DNA of 64,000 nt, from NCBI RefSeq assembly GCF_010731655.1, contig NZ_AP022619.1:806001-870000 (forward strand). Direction: 5' to 3'. Below are positions 36,064 to 43,986 of the stretch, piece by piece; positions within the stretch are counted from its first letter, which is position 1, and the number at the start of each line of letters is the position of its first letter. Both the position numbers and the translations under genes were made by a program. The stretch comes from Mycobacterium paraseoulense (lineage in GTDB: Bacteria > Actinomycetota > Actinomycetes > Mycobacteriales > Mycobacteriaceae). Under the pieces are notes generated by a model. It worked only from the letters and a program-made list of their open reading frames with translations, was not told the origin of the DNA and ran no database searches.

Positions 36064-37668
36064 CTATCCTCGGGCCGGTTCCGGAATGGCGTCGGCATGG
36101 GGCGCGTCGCTCTTGGCGTGGGCCCGGGTGAACACCAGGTAGAGAATCCCCAGGGCGATGATGGTCACCGACATCAGCAGAATGATGTAGTCGTCGTACC
36201 AAGGCTGATAGGGCTCCCGCGGCCAGGCGAGGTTGACGATGGCCGCCACCCCGTAGATCAGCGCGCCGATGTTGACGGGCACCCCCCACCGGCCCAGGCG
36301 GTACTTCCCGGTGGGCACCCAACCCTTGATCCGTGCGCGCAGCGCCGCCAGCACCACCATCTGGAAAGCGATGTAGACACCGACCGAACCGAAGCTGACC
36401 AGCTTGGTGAGCGCGTCGCTGGAGATCAGCGACCCCACGATCAACACGGCCGGGATGATGACCGCGATCAGCAGAGAGTAGGGCGGCACGTGTCGCTTCT
36501 GGTCGAAGCGCGCCAACAGCTTCGAGCCGACGATCATGTCGTCGCGGCCATAGGAGTAGATGAGCCGGCTGGCGGCCGCCTGCAGGCTCAACGCGCACGA
36601 CACGAACGAGATCAACACGATGCACAGGACGATCTTGGCGCCGACGCCCCCGAACGCCGTCTTCAGGATCGTGTCGATGGGATCGCGGTCCTTGCCGCTG
36701 ATCACCGCGCCGAAGTCGGTGACCGAGAGGATGAGGCTCAGGCAGACGAAGGTGGCCGCCGAACCGCCGACGTAGATGGTGCGACGCATGGCCTTTGGGA
36801 TCTGCACGCCGGGATTGCGGACCTCCTCGGCGACGTCGCCGCAGGCCTCGAAACCGAAGAACTGGTACAGCGCGATCAGGCTGGCGGCCAGGAAGGCGTA
36901 CATGTAACTGTGGTGCCCCTGCGCGCCGAAGGTATGGAACAGCACGCCGAGGTTGTGATGGCGCTGGGTCAACAGCAGCCAGACGCCGACCACGATGGCG
37001 CCGATCAGTTCGGCGCTGAAACCGAAGATGGCGAAATAGCCGAGGATCTTGGTGCCGGTGAGATTGATGGCGGTGGCCAGGGCCAGCATGACGAGCGCGC
37101 ACAGCACCGTGGCATGCGGAGAAGGCTTGAAGCCGAACACGTCTGCGACATAGGGGCCCGCGCCGTAGGCGGCGTCCGCGAGAAGTGCCAGCAGCGTGAA
37201 CATGTATACCCACCCGGTCATCCATGCCCATTTGCGCCCCCACAGCCGGCGCGCCCAGGGATAGACACCCCCGGCGACCGGGAACTGCGCCACCACCTCG
37301 CTGAAGACCAGCGCGACCAGCATCTGGCCGGCGCCCGCGACCAGCAGGCTCCAGATCATCGGCGGGCCTGCGGTGGACAGCGCGAACGCGAACACCGTGT
37401 AGATGCCGACCACCGGTGAGAGGTAGGTGAACCCCAGCGAGAAGTTCGCCCACGGGCTCATGTCGCGTTTGAAGTCGGACTGGAAGCCCAGGGCCTTCAG
37501 CTGGGCCAGGTCCTCGTCGTCCGGCGTGATCTGTGCCGTCACATCGGCGGGGTCCGACACCGAACTGGCGGCTCGCTTTTCGCGCTGCGCCGCAATCGGT
37601 TTCGGGTCGACGGCCAAATCGCCTTCCCAGCCCACCGGGGACCGTTTGGCCGGCTTTGTGAAGAACAT
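36064..37668 (-). CDS. APC-superfamily permease, probable guanidine (or amine) importer
   Basis: A protein of about 534 residues with a cytoplasmic N-terminus of about 70 residues and 12 predicted hydrophobic helices. APC features include SLGFTYLSPVVGIYTVFAFAL in helix 1 and QFPVAGGVYPWARRLWGRK in helix 2, as in ACT-type amino acid/choline transporters. It is the last gene of the minus-strand block that starts with the guanidine hydrolase. It lies 50 bases behind the second PPE gene. Its position in a block linked to a guanidine riboswitch suggests that it imports guanidine, which is inference. The ATG at 37668 is preferred; the frame is also open from a TTG at 37683. It converges on ureF. 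Confidence 0.88.
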   Translation of the reverse strand: MFFTKPAKRSPVGWEGDLAVDPKPIAAQREKRAASSVSDPADVTAQITPDDEDLAQLKALGFQSDFKRDMSPWANFSLGFTYLSPVVGIYTVFAFALSTAGPPMIWSLLVAGAGQMLVALVFSEVVAQFPVAGGVYPWARRLWGRKWAWMTGWVYMFTLLALLADAAYGAGPYVADVFGFKPSPHATVLCALVMLALATAINLTGTKILGYFAIFGFSAELIGAIVVGVWLLLTQRHHNLGVLFHTFGAQGHHSYMYAFLAASLIALYQFFGFEACGDVAEEVRNPGVQIPKAMRRTIYVGGSAATFVCLSLILSVTDFGAVISGKDRDPIDTILKTAFGGVGAKIVLCIVLISFVSCALSLQAAASRLIYSYGRDDMIVGSKLLARFDQKRHVPPYSLLIAVIIPAVLIVGSLISSDALTKLVSFGSVGVYIAFQMVVLAALRARIKGWVPTGKYRLGRWGVPVNIGALIYGVAAIVNLAWPREPYQPWYDDYIILLMSVTIIALGILYLVFTRAHAKSDAPHADAIPEPARG

Positions 37669-37718
37669 CTGCACTGATTCCAATCGTCGTCGAGAAAAGA
37701 GGGGTGCCTGTCGGCTCG

Positions 37719-42661: not shown

Positions 42662-43339
42662 ATGCCAACACATTCACACAGCCACCCGCATCCACAGGTC
42701 GATCGGCCGCGGCGGGTGAGGCGGCCGGGGGAGCCGCTGCGTATCGGCGTCGGCGGCCCGGTCGGGTCCGGCAAGACCGCGCTGGTGGCCGCGCTGTGCC
42801 GGCAGCTGCGCGACGAGCTGTCGCTGGCGGTGCTGACCAACGACATCTACACCACCGAGGACGCCGACTTCCTGCGCAGGCACGCGGTGTTGCCGGACGA
42901 CCGGATCGCGGCCGTGCAGACCGGTGGATGTCCGCACACCGCGATCCGCGACGACATCACCGCCAACCTCGACGCGATCGACGACCTGGTCGCCGCGCAC
43001 GAGCACTTGGACCTCATCCTCGTCGAATCCGGCGGCGACAACCTGACGGCCACCTTCTCGTCGGGTTTGGTGGACGTGCAGATCTTCGTCGTCGACGTCG
43101 CCGGCGGCGACAAAGTGCCGCGCAAGGGCGGCCCCGGCGTCACCTACTCGGACCTGTTGGTAGTCAACAAGACCGACCTGGCGCCGCTCGTCGGCGCCGA
43201 CCTGCAGGTGATGGCCGGCGACGCCAACGCGGTGCGCGGCGGCCGGCCGACCGTGCTGCAGTCCCTCGCCGACGACCCGGCCGCCTCGCAGGTGCTGGCG
43301 TGGGTCCGCACGCAATTGCGCGAGGCGGCCACCGTGTGA
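42662..43339 (+). CDS. ureG: Urease accessory GTPase UreG
   Basis: A 225-residue SIMIBI GTPase with P-loop GGPVGSGKTAL, the nickel-binding CPH motif in GGCPHTAIRDD and the guanine-specificity motif NKTDL. The His-rich N-terminus (MPTHSHSHPHPQ) can hold nickel. It hands nickel to urease together with UreF and UreD. In this genome it is cut off from ureABCF by the guanidine block and must have its own promoter in the 366-base region shared with gdmH. The stop shares one base with the ureD start. Confidence 0.97.
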   Translation: MPTHSHSHPHPQVDRPRRVRRPGEPLRIGVGGPVGSGKTALVAALCRQLRDELSLAVLTNDIYTTEDADFLRRHAVLPDDRIAAVQTGGCPHTAIRDDITANLDAIDDLVAAHEHLDLILVESGGDNLTATFSSGLVDVQIFVVDVAGGDKVPRKGGPGVTYSDLLVVNKTDLAPLVGADLQVMAGDANAVRGGRPTVLQSLADDPAASQVLAWVRTQLREAATV

Positions 43340-43986
43340 TGCGATCGCGGATCCTGGTGGTCGCGTATCCGAACCGGCTGCCGCGGATCGAGTGCGGCGG
43401 CGCCGTGGCCGCACGCTGCACTGCGCCCGAAACCGTCCACCTGGTGTCGGCGGCCGCCACGCCATTGGGCGGCGACAGCATCGACTTTCGCGTCATCGTC
43501 GAACGCGGTGCCCGGCTCAAACTACGCAGCGCCGCCGCCACCGTGGCGCTGCCCGGGGCGAAGATTCCCACCTCGCATGCCCATTGGGATGTGACGGTGA
43601 CCGGAAGCCTTGACATCGACCTGGAGCCAACGGTGGTCGCCGCCGGCGCCCGGCACGTGTCCAGCGCGGCCTTCTGCTTGCGCGACGGCGCCCAGGTGCG
43701 CTTTCGGGAGCGGGTGCAGGTCGGCAGATACGAAGAGCGCCAAGGGTTTTGGTCGGGATCCCTGCATGCCGACTGCGATGGCCGCCCGCTGTTGCGCCAC
43801 CGCGTGGAGCTGGGAGCCGGATCGCCGGGCGACGATGTCATCGCGGCGCCTCGTGCGTCGATCCACGAATTGCGCTACCCCGAGACGGCTTTTGTAGACA
43901 CCCCGATCGACGCCGGTTCGACCGTGCTGTCGTTGGCCGGCGGTGGCCTGCTGAGTACGTGGCAGGCCGACCGGCTGGGCGGCTAG
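43339..43986 (+). CDS. ureD: Urease accessory protein UreD
   Basis: A 215-residue UreD/UreH, the scaffold that binds apo-urease and recruits UreF and UreG. It follows ureG with a one-base overlap (TGATG). Its TAG stop overlaps the convergent ndh stop in the palindrome CTAG at 43983-43986. The UreD family is poorly conserved, and the call rests on ureG context plus segments such as VSAAATPLGGDSIDFRV. Confidence 0.93.
   Translation: MRSRILVVAYPNRLPRIECGGAVAARCTAPETVHLVSAAATPLGGDSIDFRVIVERGARLKLRSAAATVALPGAKIPTSHAHWDVTVTGSLDIDLEPTVVAAGARHVSSAAFCLRDGAQVRFRERVQVGRYEERQGFWSGSLHADCDGRPLLRHRVELGAGSPGDDVIAAPRASIHELRYPETAFVDTPIDAGSTVLSLAGGGLLSTWQADRLGG

Follow-up and report, generated by a model that had tools for sequence, protein, structure and literature searches.

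The closest described systems to the one reported here, a predicted guanidine-using module at the urease locus of Mycobacterium paraseoulense, are those of comammox Nitrospira and Synechocystis. In comammox Nitrospira (PMC11410670) the guanidinase operon combines a guanidine-I riboswitch, an APC permease and the guanidinase, urease completes the path, and no nickel chaperone genes lie nearby. In Synechocystis (PMC8390497, PMC12186494) the enzyme GdmH is encoded together with a guanidine-I riboswitch, hypA/hypB-type genes and an ABC importer, and hands its urea to urease; relatives of this GdmH often share operons with hypA and hypB. The guanidine-III (ykkC-III) motif has been described before emrE and speB genes (PMC2864571). 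The window analysed here is a stretch of 64,000 nucleotides (nt) (NCBI RefSeq assembly GCF_010731655.1, contig NZ_AP022619.1, positions 806,001 to 870,000 of the forward strand) from a 6.09 Mb single-contig genome; genes were called from open reading frames (ORFs) and Pfam matches, and coordinates are those of the window.

As in comammox Nitrospira, the locus brings together a riboswitch, an APC permease and a guanidinase-like enzyme, with urease to finish the path and no nickel chaperone gene seen alongside; it differs in its riboswitch class (III), in having urease at the same locus, in two PPE genes, and in gene order and strand. As in Synechocystis, a homologous enzyme (489 bits) would hand urea to urease, here with a class III riboswitch, a PPE-PPE-APC set and urease genes at the locus. 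The RNA class known from emrE and speB leaders here precedes a gene whose family formerly went by the name speB (agmatinase), and the leader is longer, with a conserved candidate platform. The parts are of known kinds, their arrangement is new, and an outer-membrane guanidine channel is possible among them. The first-pass annotation of this DNA, made from the sequence alone, had named no known description of the arrangement in mycobacteria; likewise, no description of guanidine use or of a gdmH-urease layout in mycobacteria was found among the listed titles and abstracts of the open-licence literature, which is weak evidence of absence. In M. smegmatis an 'agmatinase' was up 3.2-fold under nitrogen limitation (PMC4617892).

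gdmH and its riboswitch between ureF and ureG

Set between the ureF and ureG genes of a urease cluster that is intact in other respects, the module would likely enable guanidinium uptake, hydrolysis by GdmH and subsequent hydrolysis by urease. A rough probability of 0.82 was assigned to this reading, within which the chemistry is very likely and transport is plausible. The first-pass annotation had placed gdmH, two PPE genes and an APC permease on the other strand between the end of ureF (36047) and the start of ureG (42662); its coordinates were right and the frames are open. The first part of the urease cluster (33065-36047, plus strand) comprises ureA (33065-33364, start chosen by homology) and, as open ORFs with Pfam matches, ureB (33361-33672), ureC (33672-35405) and ureF (35412-36047). 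The second part (42662-43986, plus strand) comprises ureG (42662-43339, Pfam), divergent from gdmH, and ureD (43336-43986).

The gdmH gene (41132-42295, minus strand, TTG start; ORF and Pfam) encodes a predicted nickel-dependent guanidine hydrolase of 387 residues, which matched the arginase family PF00491 at 256 bits (cut-off 22) and was the only arginase-family match in the whole genome. Against PDB it scored 500 bits to 9fek and 489 bits to 7esr/7oi1, the two solved guanidinases, and the next family, guanidinobutyrase, scored 159 bits. For the N. inopinata guanidinase, H182, D207, H209, D211, D299 and D301 are named as metal ligands, and T105, H222, W313 and E344 as further residues (PMC11410670). 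All ten of these metal and specificity residues are present in the window protein, at positions 101-338 counted from the TTG start, and all ten are kept in 99 of the 105 homologous loci scored, some of which are second fetches of the same place; loci and genomes are cited by L and G numbers. Of the six exceptions, four (L069, L100, L108, L125) are truncated or fragmentary and two (L059, L099) carry a substitution. GdmH fell below the cut-offs of the NCBI agmatinase models, the nearest at 164.5 against 174.3 bits, and an agmatinase identity was rejected on this result, the PDB scores and the guanidinase residues. Because of the residues, the best structure matches and the riboswitch described below, GdmH is strongly predicted to hydrolyse guanidine to urea and ammonia, as had been proposed at first pass, and it is a predicted nickel enzyme.

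Co-occurrence was assessed in 148 genomes drawn from the genus, with gdmH called at E 1e-80 or better. A ureF match was found in 36/36 genomes with gdmH and in 63/112 without it (Fisher p 3.6e-8, uncorrected for kinship); since it accompanied gdmH in every case, urease is taken as the step after GdmH, which supports the earlier proposal. The two genes lay within 8 kb of each other in 10 of the 36 genomes, all with window-type gdmH, and in an eleventh (G058) they stood on contigs that both end inside PPE b; they were more than 1 Mb apart on the same contig in 12/36 and on different contigs in 13/36. The window was compared with as many as 12 loci chosen from the three arrangements described below; GdmH had the lowest pN/pS of eight genes (0.01-0.08), and values were 0.09-0.17 for UreC, 0.08-0.21 for UreG, 0.19-0.33 for UreF and 0.17-0.46 for UreD.

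Upstream of gdmH lies a guanidine-III riboswitch aptamer (42410-42472, minus strand), matched by Rfam over its full length (model 1-67) at 49.9 bits against a gathering score of 36; no guanidine-I riboswitch was matched at the gathering threshold within the window. This RNA, missing from the first-pass annotation, is added here. It was found upstream of gdmH in all 20 close loci (L002-L020 and L066, defined in the next section) and before gdmH in 31 of the 36 gdmH genomes, the others being G002, G028, G044, G087 and G059, whose contig ends inside gdmH. The aptamer end was 110-124 nt from the aligned GdmH start in the ten genomes with window-type gdmH, and 19-48 nt from gdmH in the 21 others, where the alignments begin a few residues into the protein. 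Riboswitch control of gdmH is strongly predicted, and direct control is likely limited to that gene.

An alignment of 19 of the 21 leaders available showed almost no variation in the aptamer core, a middle part that varies and an end that is conserved. The Shine-Dalgarno-like GAGAGGA of gdmH (42302-42308, minus strand) was invariant in all 19. Upstream of it, GGGCATCCTCC (42329-42339, minus strand) can pair either with GAGAGGA (off) or with GGATGCC (42401-42407, minus strand; on), a candidate anti-anti-Shine-Dalgarno strand directly 3' of the aptamer. The first pairing was kept in 98.9% of alignment cells, almost invariantly and hence with no covariation; the second was kept in 92.1%, with two cells changed on both sides, and 36 of 500 shuffles scored as high. 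The two pairings overlap and would be mutually exclusive, which makes them a candidate translational switch and the leader end a candidate translational expression platform. As a separate observation, three of four viewed guanidine-III loci without gdmH (L090, L091, L101) precede a gene for a small protein resembling SMR exporters; in the fourth (L089) no exporter-like gene was called downstream.

Arrangement and history of the module in mycobacteria

Among the best 80 of 575 confirmed gdmH relatives, 20 loci carried gdmH at least 94% identical to that of the window, all in records named Mycobacterium, and the closest in a species-named record was that of M. scrofulaceum DSM 43992 (99%). The named relatives with the block are slow growers and those of Mycolicibacterium fast growers. 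The order gdmH-PPE-PPE-APC recurred in 16/20 close loci, and the contigs of the other four (L003, L012, L018, L020) end too early, so the block recognized at first pass is no chance assembly. PPE genes were damaged in L007 and L014, and PPE a was split into two matches in L010. Urease genes stood beside the block in 18/20, L012 and L018 not reaching them. No PPE match and no such block were found in the other 60 of the best 80 loci; in one of these, from a genome of Spartobacteria (L072), ureB-ureC and gdmH are 9 kb apart.

Three arrangements were distinguished. In A, the block lies between ureF and ureG (6/20: L002, L011, L015, L019, L003 and L020, the last two assigned from the ureG side only), as it does in the window, G100 and G059. 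In B, it lies upstream of ureA and in line with it (9/20: L006-L010, L014, L016, L012 and L018, the last two assigned from the thioesterase side only). In C, it lies upstream of ureA and divergent (5/20: L004 M. attenuatum, L005 M. persicum, L013 M. szulgai, L017 M. angelicum and L066). Wherever both flanks are visible they are a thioesterase gene and ndh in all three arrangements; in the window, as in block-less relatives, the former precedes ureA and the latter follows ureD. In B, ureA begins about 10-75 nt past the APC match in the 7/7 loci that show it, close enough that the transporter genes could be cotranscribed with urease. Among 20 urease regions retrieved, 17 lack the block, and in every one of these ureF adjoins ureG. 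The first-pass phrase 'inserted into the urease operon' holds for the A clade and fails for the relatives in which the block stands upstream of ureA in either orientation.

Decay in place was seen at three loci. In the A position of a 3.2 Mb genome (L125, 6065-9309), pieces of gdmH, PPE and APC lie between open ureF and ureG; in the C position, L123 holds pieces of PPE and APC, and L092 holds a riboswitch (7142-7205) and 58 residues of gdmH between the thioesterase gene and ureA. The riboswitch-gdmH-PPE-PPE-APC unit is an established feature of the urease locus in a group of mycobacteria. By eye no transposase-like ORF was noticed in the block, no model search having been made, and the block adjoins urease in relatives; on these grounds a recent mobile-element insertion was judged unlikely.

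A FastTree phylogeny of concatenated urease and Ndh proteins from the window and 41 loci grouped every A locus in one clade and every B locus in a second (support 1.0 for each); the C loci fell in three deeper places. Because of this depth, arrangement C, with gdmH divergent from ureA, is likely ancestral. In the A clade the neighbouring block has likely shifted one step and is now divergent from ureGD. Locus comparison gave a conserved element upstream of the riboswitch, TCACAGCTGTCTT (42523-42535, no strand assigned), which was present within three mismatches in 12/12 A and C loci, window included, and in 0/9 B loci. It faces ureA in C and ureG in A, with a further island intervening in L011, from which it follows that the control region moved along with the block. 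A tandem duplication followed by loss was considered for this move and is unproven; TCACAGCTGTCTT moved with the block, but by eye no remnant of ureABCF precedes ureG. Nested within the A clade are five loci without the block (L118-L122). The ureF-ureG spacer is 143 nt in L118, by eye like the stretch before ureG in A genomes and scar-like in appearance, and 14 nt in L119, as in unsplit genomes; for the five loci, clean loss by recombination and several gains are indistinguishable.

Other loci carry further genes. In L108:4663-18431 and L011 (M. sherrisii), ureG lies about 14.5 kb from gdmH, and the intervening island encodes a hypothetical protein, a 2OG-Fe(II) dioxygenase, a nitrilase-type hydrolase, M24/creatinase-type and creatininase-family proteins, a glutamine-synthetase-like protein, regulators, a second PPE pair and another APC permease, which scored 605 bits against the permease of the urea carboxylase system (cut-off 740); every NCBIfam score in the island was below its cut-off. 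The hypothetical protein and dioxygenase pair recalls MgdL/MgdH of methylguanidine demethylation (PMC12508155), and by eye D49 and R51 of MgdL correspond to a D-x-R at 44-46 of the hypothetical protein; this is offered as a lead only. In Candidatus Frankia meridionalis, the gene directly upstream of gdmH (L046:8870-9892) looks like that of an ethylene-forming enzyme. Ethylene-forming enzyme releases guanidine from arginine, and if the gene encodes it, guanidine would be made and then broken by adjoining genes.

Transport, nickel supply and competing explanations

PPE protein b (37719-39104) and PPE protein a (39101-c.40489), both on the minus strand, are open ORFs with the PPE and PPE-SVP domains (PF00823 and PF12484); the ORF of PPE a opens at 40780, yet its PPE domain and its relatives begin at about 40489. 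The two are mutually closest in the genome, at 64% over residues 3-458 against 49% for the next. A coiled-coil-like tail ends PPE b and, by eye, also PPE a; of the other 21 PPE matches in the genome, none extends to the last 38 residues of PPE b (tail of about 40). Both belong to the same family as PPE proteins used for nutrient uptake, such as PPE51. No PE partner gene was noticed by eye among block ORFs of at least 80 residues; this check used no PE model, and a partner could be encoded elsewhere. ESX-5 substrates (PE/PPE) have been proposed to serve nutrient uptake in slow growers without MspA-like porins (PMC4418733), and PPE b is a candidate outer-membrane nutrient channel.

The APC permease (AA_permease_2; 36064-37683, minus strand, exact start uncertain) is an open ORF matching PF13520 at 157 bits. 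Its best NCBIfam model was 'permease, urea carboxylase system' (TIGR03428; 225 bits, the cut-off of 740 not being reached), and for roughly 75% of urea carboxylase genes a guanidine enzyme is the predicted product, according to a review (PMC12186494). The protein is a candidate inner-membrane guanidinium importer, and its lineage may be one of amine importers recruited for guanidine; carriage of guanidine by the PPE pair and the permease is plausible. A CAGCAAATTnnCAGnnnTTAACC-type sequence (40706-40728, minus strand) was found in all 13 aligned gdmH-PPE gaps (of 21 available), some positions varying, and is a candidate control region of a separate PPE-PPE-APC transcript. These three genes probably have their own promoter; a single riboswitch-led transcript of four genes is unsupported, given the long gap and the conserved sequence in it.

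For nickel, a HypA match was found in 34 of the 36 gdmH genomes (partial in G140; none in G011 and G082). UreG belongs to the Pfam cobW (CobW/HypB/UreG) GTPase family, the family of HypB, and it is our guess that UreG supplies nickel to GdmH.

In the pathway proposed, the PPE pair would form or support a path across the outer membrane in slow growers that lack MspA-type porins, and the APC permease would carry the guanidinium cation across the inner membrane; these would be its weakest steps. Intracellular guanidine would bind the guanidine-III aptamer, identified by Rfam, and free the gdmH Shine-Dalgarno, which the conserved upstream strand, identified by alignment, would otherwise mask. GdmH, as a predicted nickel enzyme, would turn guanidine into urea and ammonia, and urease, also a nickel enzyme, would turn urea into two more ammonia and CO2. 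From an ancestral divergence of gdmH and ureA, the block would have moved one step to face ureGD, upstream control region included. On this reading a group of mycobacteria is predicted to use guanidine as a source of nitrogen, and the locus shows clearly how a metabolic module has been relocated, and in places lost, next to the enzyme that completes its reaction. The gene order, conserved through two rearrangements, would tie the PPE pair to one small, well-defined cation, and it makes the long-standing question of the solutes of individual PPE proteins directly testable by gene removal. A bolder version, in which slow-growing mycobacteria possess a system dedicated to guanidine uptake and assimilation, the PPE pair is itself an outer-membrane guanidinium channel, gdmH and ureG-ureD share a divergent control region in the clade with the split urease cluster, and UreG gives nickel to GdmH as well as to urease, is unlikely.

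Several observations weigh against the pathway as proposed. The transporters evolve faster (pN/pS 0.11-0.38 for APC, 0.20-0.44 for PPE a and b), a gap of 467-777 nt with conserved sequence of its own splits gdmH from PPE-PPE-APC, and those genes may escape the riboswitch. In 8 of the other 60 loci an APC-like protein was matched near gdmH, at only 23-30% identity to the permease. Closer relatives (63-78%) in six viewed genomes (L082, L083, L085-L088) have P450, glutamine-synthetase-like, peptidase C26 and regulator genes as neighbours, by Pfam in three of the genomes and by eye in the others, which suggests another amine. A PPE-APC pair (PPE 48% identical) occurs in G007, on a contig ending inside PPE, with no gdmH, riboswitch, ureF or ureG matches in that genome. 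No HypA-type gene was seen in the block, and the genome's one HypA match is 5 Mb away in record coordinates. Covariation in the leader helices is weak or nil, the GATGCC strand is gone in L004 and L005, and shuffled sequences fold about as well as the 188-nt leader (z -0.72). Support for the backbone nodes of the tree is weak (0.13 and 0.48), so that the ancestral state is inferred.

Part of this would be expected if the enzyme step were right and PPE-PPE-APC served another solute (urea, a polyamine or another amine) as a mere neighbour in the urease region: the transporter genes have their own conserved upstream sequence and evolve fast, the permease lies far below the cut-off of its best model and has relatives in other gene company, and PPE-APC occurs without gdmH in G007. 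Against such a division stand the order and strand of the genes, kept through two rearrangements, a best model linked to guanidine through the urea carboxylases, and the joint loss or breakage of gdmH and transporter genes in L125, L123 and L092; this alternative is held tentatively, at clearly worse than even odds. The position between ureF and ureG may, compatibly with the proposed chemistry, be a neutral local rearrangement in which the linkage to urease is inherited and not selected. Where both flanks are visible, all three arrangements occupy one thioesterase-ndh locus, so that local moves alone would preserve linkage, and in other members of the genus gdmH is far from ureF or on another contig (the 12 and 13 genomes above). 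Against neutrality, block and urease stayed open and adjacent after both rearrangements, the element upstream of the riboswitch travelled with the block and now faces ureG, and the block reads towards ureA in the in-line arrangement; we place it a little short of an even chance.

Uptake and use of guanidine as food are also to be set against its detoxification by the same module, which would fit the export route suggested by small exporter-like genes after other guanidine-III sites (three of the four loci viewed). The block holds a permease of an import-type family instead of a small exporter, and every gdmH genome of the draw has a ureF match, so that detoxification seems quite unlikely. Agmatine or guanidinobutyrate as the substrate of GdmH is very improbable: the NCBI agmatinase model was just missed, and the N. 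inopinata enzyme released some urea from agmatine (PMC11410670), but the window protein scored 489-500 bits to guanidinases and at most 159 to others, has the guanidinase Thr and Trp, and is preceded by a guanidine riboswitch.

Other features of the window

Scans for terminators and for promoters yielded a single match apiece; both matches lie on the opposite strand and are uninformative. An Rfam 5_ureB_sRNA match lies antisense within ureC (33834-34125, minus strand) and recurs in 16 of 17 scanned related loci holding ureC; these matches probably mirror coding-sequence conservation and possibly an antisense RNA, and were not used as evidence. Two tandem glycine riboswitch aptamers were found at 14321-14546 (plus strand), and the gene downstream of them (14591-17425) resembles glycine dehydrogenase by eye.

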